Shown piece by piece: positions 38,869 to 49,622 of a stretch of 64,000 bases of DNA. The first letter of the stretch is position 1; each line of letters opens with the position of its first letter. Position numbers and translations under genes: made by a program. Source of the DNA: Fibrobacter succinogenes (lineage in GTDB: Bacteria; Fibrobacterota; Fibrobacteria; Fibrobacterales; Fibrobacteraceae). The stretch spans positions 1 through 64,000 of the forward strand of contig CACXMH010000006.1 of assembly GCA_902768715.1 (NCBI GenBank). Direction: 5' to 3'. A model generated the notes under the pieces. It searched no databases, had not been told where the DNA came from, and saw only the letters and a program-made list of their open reading frames with translations.

Positions 38869-40521
38869 ATGGATGTAGGAATGCATTTAGGCCAGAGCCA
38901 ACGGCTGGAGCAGAATATCTCGCCCCAGATGCTCCAGTCCATTGCTATCCTGCAAAAAAATTCCCTGGAGCTTGAAACCGCCATCAAGGCTGAGGTAGAG
39001 GCGAACCCTCTGCTGGAATTTGACGACGAACCCTTGGGAGAATCATTGGATTCCCCCTCGGAATCGGTGCAGTCCGGCGAATCGGACTTCGATACCGAAG
39101 ACACGTCCCGCAATTCCGACGATAGCGGTGTTTCTTCTTTGGATTTTGAACGGGGCACTCTCGAAGATAGCGCCGACGTGGACCACGGTCTTTTGGACGG
39201 CTCTACTCCTTCGGAGCTGAACTGGGCCCAGTATCTCGAAGACGGCACCGACCATACGGATTCGCTTTACAGGGATTCCGTCAACCAGCAGAAGGACCCC
39301 GACGACGCCTGGGACCGCCCGCAAAAAGACAGGGAGGCAAGCCTCCAGGACCGCCTGCTGTTACAACTTAGGGACTGGAACGGAACCCGCGAACTTATGG
39401 CACAGCTTGCAAAGGCGGGCTGTCCGGAAGTTCGTTTCCGCAGCCTGGTGGAATACCTGATTGACTCCCTGGACGAAAACGGTTTTCTGCAAAGTGCCGA
39501 CGAGATGGCCATGGCAAAGGTCATGTCCGACAACGATCCTTTCATCATCGAAATCGAGAAGGTAATCCGTAACGAAATTCCCCTCGAAGAGGCGAGCCTC
39601 CCGGTGGTAGAGGCCTTCCATGTGCTCCGGAGTTTTAGACCCAGGGGAATCGGCGCCAGGAACCTTCAAGAATGTTTTATCATTCAGGCGGAATCCCTGG
39701 AAAATTTTCCGGCCCTTTCGCTCCAGATTTTGAAAGATCGTTTCGACGACCTGATGGCGCTTCGCTACGCCAAGATTGCAAAGGACCTGTGTGTTTCTAC
39801 CGAAGAGGTGCAACAGGCGGTGAGCAGTCTTTCTAGGCTTGCGCCCCACCCGGGTCAGCAGATGTCAAGTGCCCCGAACCAGATTAAGGTGGCCGACATG
39901 AAGGTGGTAGAAAAGAAGGGCCGGTTCGAGGTGGAATGCTACCGCCGCCGCGTCCAGAAACGACTGCACCTGAACCAGACTTACGCCTCTCTCTTGAACG
40001 ACGGTCACCTGAGCAAGAACGACAGGGAATATATCCAGAACAACCTCTCCAAGGCAAAAGAATTCATCAAGGCGGTGGACAACCGTTTCTCTACTATGGA
40101 AAATGTGATGATGGCCATCGTCAAGCATCAGGAGGCTTTTTTCCGTCAGGGGCCTGCCTTCTTGAAGCCCATGATTCTGCAGGACATTGCCGACGAGGTT
40201 GGCCGCGACCTGAGCACCATCAGCCGCGTGACCAACGGAAAGTACGTGGATACGCCCTACGGCATCTTTGAACTCAAGCAGTTCTTTACTACCGGTATCA
40301 AGCAGGGGAGTGCCGCAAACGATGAAGTAATCGGCTCGGCCCAGATTCTCGAAGCTATCAAGAAACTGGTAGATGAAGAAGACAAGAAAAAGCCCCTTTC
40401 GGACCAGGCCATCGCAGACGCCCTGGACAAGCAGGGCATCAAGGTGGCCCGCCGCACGGTGGCCAAGTATCGGGAAGAGGAACTGAAAATCCTCCCTGCC
40501 AGGCTCCGCAAGGCGCTTTAG
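38869..40521 (+). CDS. rpoN: RNA polymerase sigma-54 factor
   Basis: The protein is 550 aa. The N-terminal activator-interacting region is Gln/Leu-rich (QSQRLEQNISPQMLQSIAIL). An acidic stretch of about 110 residues follows (region II). The core-binding domain has FRPRGIGARNLQECF and APHPGQQ. The C-terminus has the helix-turn-helix DEVGRDLSTISRVTNGKYV and the RpoN box ARRTVAKYRE. It directs RNA polymerase to -24/-12 promoters with enhancer-binding activators, none of which is in the window. A perfect target lies at 45185 before hsp20. Confidence 0.95.
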   Translation: MDVGMHLGQSQRLEQNISPQMLQSIAILQKNSLELETAIKAEVEANPLLEFDDEPLGESLDSPSESVQSGESDFDTEDTSRNSDDSGVSSLDFERGTLEDSADVDHGLLDGSTPSELNWAQYLEDGTDHTDSLYRDSVNQQKDPDDAWDRPQKDREASLQDRLLLQLRDWNGTRELMAQLAKAGCPEVRFRSLVEYLIDSLDENGFLQSADEMAMAKVMSDNDPFIIEIEKVIRNEIPLEEASLPVVEAFHVLRSFRPRGIGARNLQECFIIQAESLENFPALSLQILKDRFDDLMALRYAKIAKDLCVSTEEVQQAVSSLSRLAPHPGQQMSSAPNQIKVADMKVVEKKGRFEVECYRRRVQKRLHLNQTYASLLNDGHLSKNDREYIQNNLSKAKEFIKAVDNRFSTMENVMMAIVKHQEAFFRQGPAFLKPMILQDIADEVGRDLSTISRVTNGKYVDTPYGIFELKQFFTTGIKQGSAANDEVIGSAQILEAIKKLVDEEDKKKPLSDQAIADALDKQGIKVARRTVAKYREEELKILPARLRKAL

Positions 40522-43667: not shown

Positions 43668-44963
43668 ATGAATATCACGAAAGCCTCCTTGTTTGGGATT
43701 CTAGCGGCAGCGACGCTTTTGCATGCCGGTACGTCTTGGACTTTGGAGGCCTGTCTTAAACAGGCGGCTGAAAAAAGCCTTTCCCTTGAGACGGCTAAGC
43801 TCCGGGAGCAGCAGGCCCAGGTTAACGTAAAGCAGGCAAAGATTGGGCATTACCCGACGGTTTCTGCGAACATCCAGAACACCCTTTACGATCATCCTTT
43901 TATAGACCAAGAAGACCATTACCGCCTGAACTTGGGATTGAACGGTTCCGTGACCCTGTGGGACGGCGGCGCTACCAGCCTGAACGTTGAGGCCAAGGAA
44001 CTGAGCCGCGAGGCTGCGGAACTTTCTACCCTGCAGGCCAAACGCACCGTACAAGAAAACGTGCTGAACGCCTACATGAGCCTGCTTCTGGCCAAGGAAA
44101 ATCTGCGGACGGCGGATTACGCGGTCGAGGTGGCCCAGGCGGAATTCGAATACTTTACGAACCTCTACGGGGTAGGTTCCGTGACCAAGAAGGACCTGAC
44201 CCAGTCCGAGGCCAGCGTGCTCCAGAAACAGGCGGCAAAGATTACGGCCGAACTGAAGGTCTCTACCGCAAGGACCACGCTCCGGCAGCTGCTGGAATTG
44301 CCCGAGACCGAAGAGTTCGACGTGTCCGCTCCCGAAATCAGCATGAACAATCCGGATTCCTTGCCGCCCCTGCCGGAATATGGCGAGCTGCAGGCCCGCA
44401 TCAGGGCCGCACATCCGGGACTCAAGTCCGACAGTATTTCTGTGAAGGCCGCCCAGAAGAACACCAAGGTGGCAGGCAAGAACAGCTCTATCTCCGTGAC
44501 CCTGGGGGCAAATTCCAGCACAGGCTTGCAGGCCTGGGAATCCAAGGGCTACAAGGACCAGCTCAAGTACGGCTGGCAGAATTCCTTGACCCTCGGGATC
44601 AGCATTCCCATCATTGACGCGGGGGCTACCGCCAACAAGGTGCTGCTGGCCCAGGTGAACGAGGCGGAGACCCAGGTGGGCCTGCAGGAGACGGCAAAGA
44701 ATTTGGAAAACAGCATCGAAAAGCTTTACCTGAACGCCCTCAGCGCCGATTTGCAGTGGAAAGCCGCCGTCTTGCAGGTGGCCGCCGAGCAGGAGGCCCT
44801 GAAGGTGGCCGAAGAGCAGCGCAGGCTGGGGGCGCTGACCTACACCGATTACCTGAACCAGAAAAACAGCCTGGAATCGGCGCAGGTCGCCCTGAACAAC
44901 GCCAAGTACACGAGCCTCCTTTCCCGCAAGCTTCTGGACCTGTACCAGGGCCTGCTGGACTAA
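43668..44963 (+). CDS. TolC-family outer-membrane efflux protein
   Basis: The protein is 431 aa. A signal peptide (LFGILAAATLLHAG) precedes two repeats of the OEP fold: WTLEACLKQAAEKSLSLETA with long helices, YPTVSANIQNTLYDHPF strands, and a second half with KVLLAQVNEAETQVG and RRLGALTYTDYLNQKNS. It would form a trimeric channel across the outer membrane. No inner-membrane pump or fusion protein is adjacent, so its partner is elsewhere. The extended C-terminus ends in DLYQGLLD. Confidence 0.9.
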   Translation: MNITKASLFGILAAATLLHAGTSWTLEACLKQAAEKSLSLETAKLREQQAQVNVKQAKIGHYPTVSANIQNTLYDHPFIDQEDHYRLNLGLNGSVTLWDGGATSLNVEAKELSREAAELSTLQAKRTVQENVLNAYMSLLLAKENLRTADYAVEVAQAEFEYFTNLYGVGSVTKKDLTQSEASVLQKQAAKITAELKVSTARTTLRQLLELPETEEFDVSAPEISMNNPDSLPPLPEYGELQARIRAAHPGLKSDSISVKAAQKNTKVAGKNSSISVTLGANSSTGLQAWESKGYKDQLKYGWQNSLTLGISIPIIDAGATANKVLLAQVNEAETQVGLQETAKNLENSIEKLYLNALSADLQWKAAVLQVAAEQEALKVAEEQRRLGALTYTDYLNQKNSLESAQVALNNAKYTSLLSRKLLDLYQGLLD

Positions 44964-44971
44964 CCCAACCT

Positions 44972-44998
44972 GTCATCCCCGCGAAGGCGGGGATCTCC
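44972..44998. repeat. REP-like hairpin, perfect copy
   Basis: GTCATCCCCGCGAAGGCGGG then GATCTCC. It is identical to 45083-45109 and 60301-60327. Confidence 0.9.
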
Positions 44999-45028
44999 TT
45001 TTCTTGCCTGCTTAAAAACAAAACGTCC

Positions 45029-45058
45029 CCCTGTTTCTTACCTGAAACAGGGCCGTTT
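45029..45058. terminator. Hairpin terminator candidate after the tolC-like gene
   Basis: CCCTGTTTC-TTACCT-GAAACAGGG is a perfect 9-bp stem. It is flanked by AAACG and CGTTT, which extend it. A short T-rich stretch follows. It lies between two identical REP-like copies. Confidence 0.65.
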
Positions 45059-45082
45059 CTTATTGAAAGGGATGTCCGATTT

Positions 45083-45109
45083 GTCATCCCCGCGAAGGCG
45101 GGGATCTCC
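45083..45109. repeat. REP-like hairpin, perfect copy
   Basis: Identical to the copy 111 bp upstream. Confidence 0.9.
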
Positions 45110-45184
45110 CATTTTCACCCCCAAAACGCCATTTTTTGCCGTTTCCTGGCTTTTTTTCCGAATGGGTGCCGTCTTCTGCAAAAA

Positions 45185-45201
45185 TTGGCACGGCCTTTGC
45201 A
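45185..45201 (+). promoter_or_regulatory. Consensus sigma-54 promoter of hsp20
   Basis: TTGGCACG-GCCT-TTGCA. GG at 45187-45188 and GC at 45199-45200 are separated by 10 bp, the exact -24/-12 geometry. Transcription would start near 45212, giving a leader of about 75 bases before the hsp20 ATG. Confidence 0.88.
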
Positions 45202-45286
45202 TATAGGAGTGTGAAAACAAAAAACCGGGTCCCCGGCTAAGGCAAACCGCCCAGGCCAGGGGCCCACAACCAGTGAGGTTAAAATT

Positions 45287-45664
45287 ATGCTCAATACTCA
45301 GATTCTTCCTTCCGCTTTCTATGGTATCCAGAACTTCCTTGACAACCTTAACGCCTGCAACGCTCAGGGCGAATGTGCCTACACTCCCAAGGCCGACTAC
45401 TACGAAGTGGACAACGGCTTTGTGCTAGAGGTGGAATTGCCGGGCGTCAAGAAAGAAGACCTGGATGTGCAGGTAGAAAAGAACATCATCACCGTCAAGG
45501 CCACCCGCGCCCGCAAGGACAGCAAGTACACCTACGAACGGAGCTTCCGCCTGGCCGACGATATTGACCCCGAGAACATCAAGGTCTCGTTGGAAAACGG
45601 CGTGTTGACCTTCTCGCTAGCCAAGAAGCAGCAGGCTTCCGCACGCAAGTTGACCGTGGACTAA
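45287..45664 (+). CDS. Small heat-shock protein
   Basis: The protein is 125 aa. The alpha-crystallin domain spans about 33-120: PKADYYEVDNGFVLEVELPG, VKKEDLDVQVEKNIITVKA, YERSFRLADDIDPENI and VSLENGVLTFSLAKK. The short N-terminal arm (NTQILPSAFYGIQNFLDNL) is variable as usual. It holds unfolded proteins in a refoldable state. A strong sigma-54 promoter lies upstream and a strong terminator downstream, so the gene is a single-gene unit under RpoN control. Confidence 0.93.
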   Translation: MLNTQILPSAFYGIQNFLDNLNACNAQGECAYTPKADYYEVDNGFVLEVELPGVKKEDLDVQVEKNIITVKATRARKDSKYTYERSFRLADDIDPENIKVSLENGVLTFSLAKKQQASARKLTVD

Positions 45665-45706
45665 CTCGGCGATTGTAACGATTCTTCATTGTGCTCCTTA
45701 AACACC

Positions 45707-45738
45707 AGGGACATCCGCAAGGATGTCCCTTCTTTTTT
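45707..45738 (+). terminator. Rho-independent terminator of hsp20
   Basis: AGGGACATCC-GCAA-GGATGTCCCT is a perfect 10-bp stem followed by TCTTTTTTG. Confidence 0.92.
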
Positions 45739-45798
45739 GTTGAAGGGGGAAGTTTCCCCCGCACCTCACACTCCATATCGCACACTTCTTGTCCCCAG

Positions 45799-45879
45799 CG
45801 CCCCTAACACCTAAAACCTATTACCTAGCCCCTAGATTCTAAATCCTAGCCCCTATTACCTAACACCTAGCCCCTATCC
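45799..45879. repeat. Degenerate CCTA-rich tandem repeat
   Basis: Phrases such as CCCCTAACACCTAA, TTACCTAGCCCCTA and TACCTAACACCTAGCC recur with irregular spacing of 7-30 bp. No coding frame explains it. It sits between the hsp20 terminator and the ECF promoter motif. Confidence 0.7.
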
Positions 45880-45932: not shown

Positions 45933-46436
45933 ATGGAAAGGATAAATTCCGCAGACCGCATGGCGTTCTCTAGACTGTACGAGGCCTACGCCCCGATGGT
46001 TTACCGTCGCTGCATGGCCCTGCTCAAGGACGAGGCGGAGGCTTCGGACCTGATGCAGGACGTGTTTTTGCGGATTTATGCCGGCATGAACCGCCTGAAC
46101 CTGGACAGTCCCAGCAGTCTTTTGTGGAATACGGCCACCAGGCTCTGCCTGAACCGCATCCGCGACAAGAAACGCAGGGGGCTGGACGTGGATTCCAGCG
46201 AACTGCTCCTGAATATCGCCTGCGCAGACGACGAGCAGGAAGGCTACGAGGCTCGCGGCATATTGGCGAAAATTTTTTCGCGGGAGCAGGAATCTACCCG
46301 GACCATTGCGGTGTTACACTATGTAGATGGTATGACGCTGGAAGAAACCGCCGAGATGGTGGGGCTTTCGGTAAGCGGGGTGCGCAAGCGTTTACGCACC
46401 TTGCAGGCAAGAGTTAAAAACCTGGAGGTGAAGTGA
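45933..46436 (+). CDS. ECF sigma-70-family factor
   Basis: The protein is 167 aa. Region 2 is FSRLYEAYAPMVYRRCMALL, then KDEAEASDLMQDVFLRIY and LWNTATRLCLNRIRDKKRRG. Region 4 is IAVLHYVDGMTLEETAEMVG, then LSVSGVRKRLRTLQARV. It redirects RNA polymerase to a small set of promoters. The next gene is an anti-sigma-like membrane protein that starts 1 bp inside the sigma stop codon, followed by a caspase-like protease. The shared motif at 45898 and 59771 suggests autoregulation and a TonB-receptor-like target. Confidence 0.92.
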   Translation: MERINSADRMAFSRLYEAYAPMVYRRCMALLKDEAEASDLMQDVFLRIYAGMNRLNLDSPSSLLWNTATRLCLNRIRDKKRRGLDVDSSELLLNIACADDEQEGYEARGILAKIFSREQESTRTIAVLHYVDGMTLEETAEMVGLSVSGVRKRLRTLQARVKNLEVK

Positions 46437-47236
46437 TGATTCCCGACTGGAAACTGGAAAAATACTTGACGGGCGACTTGCCTGCCGAAGAAATGCGCGA
46501 AATCCGCGAGATGGAAGCGGCTGACGAGATCTTCGCCAACCGCGTGAAGATGTTGCGTGAGGACAATGCGGCAATCCTCAAGAGGCTCCCTTTCGAAAAA
46601 CTTTCGGAAAAGATTGCCGCGATGCCCGGACGCTCCAATGCAGGTGCCGGAAACATGGTGCGTGTGAATTTCAAGTTGGTGAAGTTTGCGGCCGCTGCGG
46701 CCTTAGTGCTTGCGGTGATGACTGTGGCGGTGTTCAGCCAGCGTTCCCTTTCGGAGCAGGGCGGCACGGTTCTTGCGACCGCCGCAAACACCCAGGTTAT
46801 GGAAGTGGCCATGGCCGACGCCTCCGGTGACGATGGCGTGCGTATCAAGGGACTCTCTGCCCGCATGGAAGTCTGGAAAAAGACAGGCGATAGCGCCGTG
46901 CAAATGGAAAATCTGGGAGAAGCTCGGGAGGGCGACGAAATCCAGCTGCGTTACGCCGTTGCCGAAAAATGTTTCGGTCTGCTTTTCAGCATGGACGGAA
47001 ACGGGACTATCACCATGCACATGGGGCACGGGAACCGCGCCGTAGAACTTGAACCCGGCAAGATGACCACCCTCCCCTTTGCCTACAAGCTAGATAACGC
47101 CCCGAAATTCGAGAAGTTCTTTTTCTTGACCTCGAAAAATGAATTCGAGTTGAACGCGGGGGATATTGACGCCTCGCTGAAACAGGAGGGCGTGAAGACG
47201 GTAAGCCTCACGCTTCGCAAGACGGAGGGCAAGTAA
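46436..47236 (+). CDS. Membrane anti-sigma-like protein with DUF4384-like periplasmic part
   Basis: The protein is 266 aa from the ATG at 46436 (GGAGGTGA upstream). The N-terminal 75 residues are an acidic/helical cytoplasmic domain (DWKLEKYLTGDLPAEEMREI) in the place of an anti-sigma domain; the zinc-binding HxxxCxxC motif is absent. A single membrane helix is at about 81-100 (FAAAAALVLAVMTVAVF). The exported part has VWKKTGDSAVQMENLGEARE, GDEIQLRYAVAEKCFGLLFS and MDGNGTITMHMG, resembling DUF4384 domains found beside caspase-like proteins. It probably holds the sigma factor at the membrane. Confidence 0.75.
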   Translation: MIPDWKLEKYLTGDLPAEEMREIREMEAADEIFANRVKMLREDNAAILKRLPFEKLSEKIAAMPGRSNAGAGNMVRVNFKLVKFAAAAALVLAVMTVAVFSQRSLSEQGGTVLATAANTQVMEVAMADASGDDGVRIKGLSARMEVWKKTGDSAVQMENLGEAREGDEIQLRYAVAEKCFGLLFSMDGNGTITMHMGHGNRAVELEPGKMTTLPFAYKLDNAPKFEKFFFLTSKNEFELNAGDIDASLKQEGVKTVSLTLRKTEGK

Positions 47237-47237
47237 G

Positions 47238-49622
47238 ATGATGAATTTGATTAAAAAGGTGGACGCGTCCTTGACGCTCCAGATTGTTTCGGTCATCGCA
47301 TTGGTCCTGTTGGCCGCGGCTTCCAGTGTTTCCGCCGCCCAGGAGATTCAGATCAACCGCTACGTGCTGGCCGTAAGCGCCAATTACGGCGGCGAGGGCC
47401 GCCCCACCCTCCGCTATGCCGCAAGCGATGCCCGCTCCTTCGTGAACGTGCTGAAGGAAATGGGCGGTGTGCAGGCGGGGAACATCGTGGAGGTGAAGGA
47501 ACCCAGCGTCGCCGCATTCCAGCAGAAGATTGACGAACTGGACAAGAAGATTGCAAAGAACAAGCCGGCAGGCGGTCGCGACGAGGTGCTGGTCTATTAC
47601 AGCGGTCACGCCGACGAAAAGGGCCTGCGTCTGGGCAAGGAGACCTTCGCCTGGAAGACGCTCCGCACAAAAATCGATTCCCTCCATGCCGACGTGAAGA
47701 TTGCGGTGATAGACGCCTGCGGTTCAGGAGCCATTACCCGCGCGAAGGGTGGCGTGGCTGTGCCCGCCTTTATGGTGGACAAGAGTTCCGACATGAAGGG
47801 CTATGCCTTTATTACCAGCAGCACGCAAGATGAATCCAGCCAGGAAAGCGACAGGCTGAAGGGTTCCTTTTTTACCCACTCCCTGGTGAGCGGCCTACGC
47901 GGGGCTGGCGATATCAGCGGCGATGGCAAGGTGACCCTTTCCGAAGCTTACCAGTTTGCCTTTAACGAAACACTCCAGAAAACGGAAGCCACCATGGGTG
48001 GCGCCCAGCACCCCAGCCGGGACATGAACCTGGCTGGTACTGGCGACGTGGTGATGACGGATTTGCGCAGCATGAACGCGGGCCTTGACATCGGCGAAGA
48101 CGTGGAAGGCCGTCTGTTCATCCGTGACGAGCGGGGCGAGCTGGTGGCGGAACTTTACAAGAAGGCAGGGCGGCCCATCAACCTGGGGCTTGCCGCCGGC
48201 AAGTACAGCGTGCGTCTGGAAAGGCCCGCCGAATATAAGGAGGCGAGCGTCACCCTGCAGGACAATTACCGTGCCCAGCTCACGCAAAAACAGTTCAGCG
48301 CCATCGTTGCCGAAAAGACCACCCTCCGGGGCGAAATCGCCCGCCGCGGGGACTGTGCCTCCGGCGATACCGTCGCCTGTTCCTTGGATTCCCTGGACCA
48401 CAACGGAAAATTCCGGGTGACCTTCAACTTGGTGGACAAGGACCGCGAAGCCCGCAAGGGCCTGCAGATGGGCCTGTTCGTGACCCGTACCGACAGCTAT
48501 ATGCTGGGTTCGCAAATCAGCATCTTTGCAAACATCGCCCGCAAGGAAATGCATGGCCTGCAACTTTCGGCGGTGTTCAACGGCGCGAAGGAGCATTACG
48601 AAGGGGCGCAGATTTCGAGCGTCATGAACTATGCGGGTTCCTTTGACGGAATCCAGGTGTCTCCCGTGATCAACGTGGCCAAGGAGAATTCTTCGGGTGT
48701 GCAGGTCTCAGCCACCATGAACGTGGCCCGTGATTCCCTGAACGGCGTGCAGGTTGCCCCCGCTATCAACTACGCCCGTGAAACCAAGGCCCAGATTTCT
48801 GCGGCCCTGAACGTGGCCAAGGAAACCCATGCCCAGATTACCGCCGCGGCGAACATCGCGAGAGAGTCTGACGTGCAGGTGTCCACTGCTTTGAACGCCG
48901 CCAAGAAATCCGGTGTGCAGGTGACTGCGGCCCTGAACGCGGCCAAGGAATCGGACGTGCAGGTGGCAGCCGCCATGAATGTGGCGGGCAAGCTCAACAC
49001 CGCCCAGGTGAGCGTCTTGAACATTGCGGGTCGTGCCGACGGCCGCCAAGTGGGCATCCTGAACATCTGCGGCCACTGCGAAAAGACTCCCGTGGGCCTC
49101 ATCAACATCGTGGGTAACGGCGTGTGGAGCGTCACGGGCTCACTCAACGAAATGGGCGCCCTGGGCGTTGCTCTCCACATGGGTACGGCCAACCTCTACA
49201 CCGCTCTCGAAGGAGAACGACTGATTGAAAAGGGCACTAAGTTCAAGCACTTTAGCGACGTTTCCGAGGCGGGTATCGGTCTTGGAACGCAGTTTGGTCA
49301 ATATGGTAGCCATTTTGATCTGGAATACATGCTCCTGATGGAACAGAACAAGGTAGACTTTAGCTTTGACGATTCAAATTTTGAATACGGTTCCGAAGAC
49401 GGAGTCAATTTCCACCACCGTTTGCGCTTGGGCTATACGACTCGAGTGTTCCCCTTCTTCGGACTCTCGGTGGGCGGCACCCTCAACGTTGCAGCGCAGG
49501 GCTATGGCGAAAAGATTCTGGTAAAGCCCCTCAGCGAATACCACGACGACTTCGGCCACGAAGGGGATAAATTCCGCTTCTGGCCCGGATTCTACGCCGG
49601 CATTACCGTCGGAAGGTTCTAG
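47238..49622 (+). CDS. Exported caspase-like (C14) protease with surface repeats
   Basis: The protein is 794 aa. A signal or anchor segment is at 14-33. Residues 38-255 are a caspase-fold domain with RYVLAVSANYGGEGRPTLRY, catalytic His124 in YYSGHAD and Cys161 in VIDACGSGAI, plus DESSQESDRLKGSFFTHSL. Residues about 420-625 consist of repeats of some 15-20 residues (GVQVSATMNVARDSLN, QVTAALNAAKESD) like LA_2272-type surface repeats. A C-terminal barrel-like region of about 150 residues ends in F. It closes the sigma/anti-sigma operon 1 bp after the previous gene. The cleavage target is unknown; the anti-sigma protein is an obvious candidate. Confidence 0.85.
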   Translation: MMNLIKKVDASLTLQIVSVIALVLLAAASSVSAAQEIQINRYVLAVSANYGGEGRPTLRYAASDARSFVNVLKEMGGVQAGNIVEVKEPSVAAFQQKIDELDKKIAKNKPAGGRDEVLVYYSGHADEKGLRLGKETFAWKTLRTKIDSLHADVKIAVIDACGSGAITRAKGGVAVPAFMVDKSSDMKGYAFITSSTQDESSQESDRLKGSFFTHSLVSGLRGAGDISGDGKVTLSEAYQFAFNETLQKTEATMGGAQHPSRDMNLAGTGDVVMTDLRSMNAGLDIGEDVEGRLFIRDERGELVAELYKKAGRPINLGLAAGKYSVRLERPAEYKEASVTLQDNYRAQLTQKQFSAIVAEKTTLRGEIARRGDCASGDTVACSLDSLDHNGKFRVTFNLVDKDREARKGLQMGLFVTRTDSYMLGSQISIFANIARKEMHGLQLSAVFNGAKEHYEGAQISSVMNYAGSFDGIQVSPVINVAKENSSGVQVSATMNVARDSLNGVQVAPAINYARETKAQISAALNVAKETHAQITAAANIARESDVQVSTALNAAKKSGVQVTAALNAAKESDVQVAAAMNVAGKLNTAQVSVLNIAGRADGRQVGILNICGHCEKTPVGLINIVGNGVWSVTGSLNEMGALGVALHMGTANLYTALEGERLIEKGTKFKHFSDVSEAGIGLGTQFGQYGSHFDLEYMLLMEQNKVDFSFDDSNFEYGSEDGVNFHHRLRLGYTTRVFPFFGLSVGGTLNVAAQGYGEKILVKPLSEYHDDFGHEGDKFRFWPGFYAGITVGRF

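Follow-up and report, generated by a model that had tools for sequence, protein, structure and literature searches.

The small heat-shock gene hsp20 of this Fibrobacter genome appears to belong to a sigma-54-dependent chaperone (heat-shock) regulon, in which an enhancer-binding protein that we call P0002 would act through GTTTC-N5/6-GAAAC dyads; judging from sequence comparisons, we put the probability of this reading at roughly 0.7. The window, by which we mean the whole 64,000-nt stretch of DNA analysed, is part of a 2.84 Mb draft genome (G000, contig C6), and its hsp20 is the sole Hsp20 gene detected in that genome. The DnaK encoded there shows 100% identity to DnaK from a Fibrobacter succinogenes MAG and from Fibrobacter sp. 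UBA7003, which places the genome in the genus Fibrobacter. A first-pass annotation had described a textbook sigma-54 promoter before hsp20 and a strong terminator closing the unit, and both descriptions are borne out (Table 1). The segment TTGGCACGGCCTTTGCA (45185-45201) contains TGGCACGGCCTTTGCA, a match to TGGCACR-N4-TTGCW with 0 mismatches in which the -24 GG and the -12 GC stand 10 bp apart, as in sigma-54 promoters, at a distance of 101 nt from the hsp20 ATG, and the terminator lies just beyond the annotated stretch 45185-45664.

Table 1. Features of the hsp20 locus and of rpoN in the window.
Feature	Position	Strand	Basis
rpoN (sigma-54)	38869..40521	+	Sigma54_AID, CBD and DBD domains
Enhancer-like dyad 1, GTTTCTTACCTGAAAC	45033..45048	.	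GTTTC-N6-GAAAC
Enhancer-like dyad 2, GTTTCTTATTGAAAG	45055..45069	.	GTTTC-N5-GAAA
Sigma-54 -24/-12 promoter, TGGCACGGCCTTTGCA	45186..45201	+	genome pattern scan, genus conservation, information content
GC-rich hairpin, predicted 5' leader	45227..45265	+	folding
hsp20, 125-aa small heat-shock protein	45287..45664	+	Pfam Hsp20, 63.9 bits (cut-off 20.8)
Intrinsic terminator, AGGGACATCC-GCAA-GGATGTCCCT-TCTTTTTTG	45707..45738	+	10 pairs, loop of 4, T-rich tail

The hsp20 site is the single match to TGGCACG-N4-TTGCW at 0 mismatches in the whole window; when up to 2 mismatches are allowed, the window holds 17 matches versus a mean of 10.4 in shuffled sequence, so that little weight attaches to the weak sigma-54-like sites elsewhere in the window. 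From the position of the -12 element, transcription of hsp20 is predicted to start near 45212. No sigma-70-like site was found in 44950-45800, which is a weak negative since the chance expectation there is just 0.4. The genome encodes both partners that a sigma-54 promoter needs, enhancer-binding proteins and rpoN itself, the latter inside the window 4.7 kb upstream of the hsp20 promoter. As for the surroundings, TGTCATCCCCGCGAAGGCGGGGATCTCC is present twice (44971-44998 and 45082-45109) between a TolC-like gene and hsp20 and looks like a dispersed hairpin repeat, and the adjoining region 45933-49622 encodes an ECF-type sigma factor, a protein without a Pfam match and a large caspase-domain protein.

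That hsp20 is under RpoN control, as the first-pass annotation had claimed while proposing orthologous promoters as a check, is supported by the conservation of the -24/-12 site in all readable promoters of the genus and in most other Fibrobacterota copies examined. The gene was found in 55 of 61 Fibrobacter genomes; its promoter is readable in 54, the remaining one being at a contig end, and all 54 carry the site (25 with 0 mismatches, 29 with 1) at 82-101 nt upstream of the ATG. When these promoters are anchored on the site, the fixed positions have a mean information content of 1.74 bits versus 0.32 in the 60 nt upstream. Outside the genus one fetched copy per genome was assessed, with start codons set by a simple rule, and many outgroup genomes have several Hsp20 genes, so the following counts refer to the fetched copies. 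A site with at most 1 mismatch precedes hsp20 in 19 of 21 loci from other genera of the family, the two remaining loci having a site with 2 mismatches at -65; it is present in the single order-level locus, in 8/8 assessable first copies at class level (at -130 and -183 in two cases), and in 20 of the 24 loci from other classes that could be assessed, when up to 350 nt is allowed (within 125 nt in 13). Two loci (L128 and L108) could not be judged and were left out of the counts. No site was seen at the second tandem copies L155 and L156 or at the second paralogue of G155 (L154), all of them uncounted.

The predicted 5' leader offers another conceivable level of control, namely that hsp20 is regulated mainly post-transcriptionally by an RNA thermometer, with sigma-54 providing the supply of transcript. 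The whole leader folds at -30.4 kcal/mol (z -2.4; 2 of 200 shuffles as good), the leaders of four relatives have z values of -0.9 to -2.05, and each of the 5 folded leaders has a GC-rich hairpin. The main hairpin, however, leaves the ribosome-binding site free. A small second hairpin does touch the ribosome-binding site in two of the five folds, those of the window copy (4 pairs) and L065 (6 pairs), but it is absent from the centroid structure of the window copy and from L051. RNAalifold gave 3 pairs and no covariation on an admittedly imperfect alignment, so we claim no conserved leader structure, and the leader had no match in Rfam at the gathering score. Control mainly by a thermometer is very unlikely in our judgement.

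The sigma-54 pattern reaches well beyond hsp20. A genome-wide scan gave 14 perfect and 73 one-mismatch sites, 87 altogether, versus 40 matches of a reversed control pattern at the same tolerance of 1 mismatch. By this measure some 40 of the 87 could be expected without any function, and one might ask whether the sites at the chaperone genes are likewise chance sequence matches; their conservation and position at hsp20, groES and dnaK make this extremely improbable for these three genes, while the sites at the Clp, spoVG and sigma-70-family genes may be chance matches. In the window's own genome, perfect sites precede hsp20, dnaK and groES (downstream genes assigned by Pfam), and sites with one mismatch, the tolerance at which about half of the genome matches are expected by chance, precede htpG, grpE and a Clp-type ATPase gene. 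The first-pass description of a single hsp20 unit thus stands as far as hsp20 under sigma-54 is concerned, but the unit of control would be a chaperone gene set rather than hsp20 alone. Nitrogen genes with sigma-54 sites in the same genome are those of PII, a glutamate-synthase-type amidotransferase and a type III glutamine synthetase. We also note that htpG is split over two open frames in the draft genome (L167:1577-3014 and L222:1010-1951), and that a SpoVG gene (L202:641-967) is preceded by a similar sigma-54 site. A one-mismatch site lies 53 nt before the start of a 270-aa sigma-70-family factor (L209:195-1004), and a sigma cascade is therefore possible.

Of 80 dnaK loci, 28 from Fibrobacter or Fibrobacteraceae were counted, some of them near-duplicates, and 34 are titled as other phyla. 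The site has 0-1 mismatch in 27 of the 28 and 2 mismatches in the last. The grpE site is weaker: where grpE is readable, at 13 of the Fibrobacter/Fibrobacteraceae dnaK loci, it has 0-2 mismatches. No site with at most 1 mismatch was found before dnaK in 17 other Fibrobacterota-like loci, 16 of which have grpE upstream.

At groES, the sigma-54 site can be set against the classical HrcA/CIRCE system. Thirty groES loci were fetched and assessed; G165 gave no match, and second strong copies of G064, G077 and G153, as well as weak divergent matches, were left out. All 19 loci of families f1 and f2 have a sigma-54 site, perfect in 15, and none of them has a CIRCE element, the closest stretch having 5 mismatches. 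Eight outgroup loci show the reverse, CIRCE with 0-2 mismatches and no sigma-54 site of up to 2 mismatches within 125 nt, and three more (two of G085, one of G077) have a sigma-54 site and no CIRCE. The distribution of the repressor follows suit: HrcA is absent from 15 of 15 f1 genomes and from the 1 f2 genome, that is, from all 16 genomes of the order searched, and present in 10 of the 11 other genomes searched, the exception being G085. The window's own genome has no HrcA match, and its best CIRCE-like stretch at groES has 8 mismatches, so neither part of the HrcA/CIRCE system is recognizable there. It appears from these comparisons that HrcA/CIRCE was lost in the order Fibrobacterales and that control of groESL and dnaK passed to sigma-54 with P0002; that the change ran from HrcA to sigma-54, and not the reverse, we infer from the distribution. 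G085 looks like a second, independent switch, because both of its fetched groES copies have a sigma-54 site and it has no HrcA. In none of 27 genomes does a protein score above the TIGR02392 cut-off for RpoH, other sigma-70-family genes reaching 150-173 bits; since TIGR02392 is a proteobacterial model, other sigma-70-family factors could still act.

Upstream of the hsp20 promoter lie the two enhancer-like dyads of Table 1, with centres 21.5 bp apart, or about two helical turns. The arms of dyad 1 are conserved, with a variable N6, in many promoters of the genus; the same element also scans as a terminator-like stem (45029-45052), with no T-run behind it. The paired dyads score 19 of 20 in the window, versus 14 for the best of 30 shuffles of the same promoter. 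Across the genus the array of four half-sites at hsp20 outscores every one of 20 dinucleotide shuffles in 54 of 54 promoters; it exceeds all 40 shuffles in 11 of 21 promoters from the rest of the family, in 1 of 9 at order and class level and in 5 of 20 from other classes. From these shuffle results we regard the array as secure within the genus and probable for the family, but unproven beyond it. Dyads matching at least 9 of 10 arm letters also occur in all 27 dnaK loci that have 400 nt upstream and in 7 of 7 groES loci of the genus. In the window's own genome such dyads are found at 4 of 6 chaperone promoters versus 3 of 81 other sites (Fisher p 2e-4, for a set tested after the motif had been seen and with one of the 'other' sites adjoining groES). 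No dyad was found there at the sites of PII, the glutamate-synthase-type gene and glutamine synthetase, nor any with at least 9 arm letters at the Clp and grpE promoters, and the htpG dyad is located downstream of its promoter. Across the genome, perfect dyads show no enrichment (16 versus 13 for the reversed control), and one inside the activator gene itself (C5:17039) was taken as chance. Perfect GTTTC-N5-GAAAC dyads are also present upstream of groES in G163 and G160 (L238 and L242), yet these genomes carry both CIRCE and HrcA and lack a sigma-54 site at that place.

For sigma-54 polymerase to open DNA, an AAA+ activator is indispensable. Twelve matches in the window's genome comprise eight enhancer-binding proteins or fragments and, by eye, four other AAA+ proteins. 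Seven of the eight were used in a reciprocal-best-hit comparison, the fragment L009 being left out, and P0002 alone among them finds its reciprocal best hit in each of the 8 other genomes; three of these genomes encode just three enhancer-binding proteins. At E <= 1e-85, P0002 is found in 158 of 167 genomes of the phylum, including 88 of 89 good ones, and it is single-copy in each listed genome except G082. The protein (G000 C5:16750) has a REC-like/AAA+/Fis-HTH architecture, with the Sigma54_activat AAA+ domain and the Fis-type HTH expected of an enhancer-binding protein. Its version of the GAFTGA loop is GSYTGS in 39 of 59 sequences, including our own, GAFTGA in 10 and something else in 10; the Thr-Gly of the loop is conserved in all 59, a set in which three genomes are included twice. 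An HTH core LG(I/L/V)SR(S/T/A)TLWRK is common to the 14 sequences inspected. The dedicated activator for protein stress that the first-pass annotation had predicted for the phylum, and had suggested seeking by genomic context, thus has a plausible candidate: P0002 follows dnaJ in 14 of 22 loci (7 of the 22 were known beforehand to be near chaperones), ordered with grpE and dnaK wherever the locus extends so far, and hrcA heads the cluster in 8 of these 14. The activator gene of G104 lies 0.8 kb away from dnaJ. At the other 8 of the 22 loci (families f7 and f9-f12) no chaperone gene was seen alongside. The grpE operon ending in P0002 has a sigma-54-like site of its own in G146 (1 mismatch) and G104 (2 mismatches), which would mean positive feedback.

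Another enhancer-binding protein might instead drive the sigma-54 regulon, for example the short, PspF-like L006 type held inactive by a partner. This type is without an N-terminal (sensor) domain, has reciprocal best hits in all 4 other genomes of the family compared, and lies about 3 kb from hsp20 in G152. It has no reciprocal hit, however, in G102, G160, G162 and G085, three of which (G102, G160 and G085) have a sigma-54 site at hsp20, and in G117, G144, G145 and G152 the gene next to it looks by eye like one for an aspartokinase. We hold control by another enhancer-binding protein to be quite unlikely.

The receiver of P0002 is unusual. Response_reg scores 29.3 bits, where Pfam sets its cut-off slightly higher at 30.2, and in 31 of 31 sequences of the genus (two from the same genome) Glu occupies the phospho-Asp position, Cys replaces the Thr/Ser switch residue and the second acidic residue is absent. 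P0002 thus has neither the phospho-acceptor Asp nor the acidic pair of an NtrC-type phosphorylated receiver. Among the copies compared, 13 of 14 linked to dnaJ are without the phospho-Asp, whereas 8 of 8 unlinked outgroup copies (L436-L443) keep the Asp, a contrast that is confounded with phylogeny. In Fibrobacter itself dnaJ is not a neighbour of P0002, whose gene instead follows those of a histidine kinase and a receiver. P0002 might accordingly be the two-component output of these neighbours, responding to envelope or metabolic stress rather than to chaperone occupancy, a possibility that overlaps with our preferred explanation and differs from it in the signal. In the window's genome P0002 comes after the kinase and a canonical receiver, by eye similar genes lie before it in G144, G152 and G117, and the Asp retained in outgroup copies without a chaperone neighbour fits this possibility as well; the degenerate receiver throughout the genus and the position behind dnaJ in so many loci speak against it. 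On balance we consider it unlikely, if still to be taken seriously, and a phosphorelay is possible in Fibrobacter given the kinase beside P0002.

Our preferred explanation is then as follows. A closed complex of sigma-54 RNA polymerase would wait at the -24/-12 site until an AAA+ enhancer-binding protein on the GTTTC-N5/6-GAAAC dyads opens it under protein stress, so that hsp20 would be induced together with dnaK, groESL, htpG and probably grpE and the Clp ATPase gene. The activator would most likely be P0002, as the candidate dyad-binding protein, whose gene closes a (hrcA-)grpE-dnaK-dnaJ cluster in much of the phylum. The degenerate receiver and the gene position beside dnaJ suggest that DnaK/DnaJ may keep P0002 inactive; chaperones, rather than phosphorylation, would then hold the activator off, and misfolded proteins would compete for DnaK/DnaJ and free it, heat or misfolded protein being the presumed signal. 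Going further, and at somewhat less than even odds, we tentatively propose P0002 as a new type of master heat-shock activator: a protein with a degenerate receiver, encoded by the last gene of the dnaK-dnaJ cluster and kept inactive by the chaperones that it induces. It would have coexisted with HrcA in early Fibrobacterota, assumed control of groESL and dnaK upon the loss of HrcA in Fibrobacterales, and done so once more in the G085 lineage.

Fibrobacter is a major rumen cellulose degrader, and sigma-54 is chiefly associated with genes for nitrogen metabolism and flagella. A chaperone response run through sigma-54, with a candidate activator, an operator motif and a switch from HrcA, would, if true, be a testable rewiring of a core stress circuit, and would hint at which type of activator to seek behind the similar promoters mapped in Bacteroidota. 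Among the dnaK loci titled Bacteroidota, eight of nine (L407, L410, L418, L419, L420, L421, L423 and L424) have a sigma-54-like site with 1-2 mismatches at -57 to -70. Five of these eight carry another candidate enhancer, the dyad TGACA-N3/7-TGTCA, at -132 to -148; the ninth (L379, Bacteroidales, 76% identical, no site) is probably misnamed.

Among the matches listed in our literature search, which had most subscription journals outside its reach, no title announced a sigma-54 heat-shock study of Fibrobacter, and neither the phylum nor the dyad, the candidate activator or the replacement of HrcA turned up there. The first-pass annotation had set the hsp20 promoter against the sigma-32, HrcA or ROSE control usual for small heat-shock genes, a contrast to be tempered, as sigma-54 control of chaperones has precedents in the excerpted texts of PMC4370416 and PMC9723704. 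Such control is, in fact, already published for Bacteroidota, in Flavobacterium psychrophilum, and for E. coli ibpB, and a similar set is predicted for Bacteroidota and Planctomycetota. In F. psychrophilum, as excerpts of the study report, start-mapped -24/-12 promoters precede groESL, dnaK, grpE-dnaJ, htpG, lon and clpB, most of the sigma-54 chaperone genes fall in one co-expression cluster, and the activator was left open with three candidates mentioned (PMC9723704). The set is like that of Fibrobacter in having sigma-54 promoters at chaperone genes; it differs in belonging to Bacteroidota and, within those excerpts, in a selection table without hsp20 and in giving no enhancer motif (PMC9723704). 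The GroEL, GroES, IbpA, GrpE, DnaJ, DnaK and Hsp90 families are enriched among predicted sigma-54 targets in Bacteroidota and Planctomycetota, according to a survey whose main text is without the words 'Fibrobact' and 'HrcA' and whose activator section gives distribution only (PMC12316311). The small heat-shock gene ibpB of E. coli is transcribed by sigma-54, as stated in part of PMC4370416, and is in this respect like Fibrobacter hsp20; E. coli differs in using sigma-32 also for ibpAB and in that a single gene is concerned. A further published system, going by its excerpted account, shares with Fibrobacter a chaperone operon with a sigma-54 promoter and differs in that HrcA is kept and the sigma-54 gene falls on heat shock. 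Within the phylum, HrcA/CIRCE is found at groES in the outgroups, whereas searches of the order to which the window genome belongs did not reveal it. In the actinobacterial HspR/DnaK feedback, the heat-shock regulator is encoded at the end of the dnaK operon; HspR is a repressor, whereas the Fibrobacter candidate P0002 would be a sigma-54 activator.
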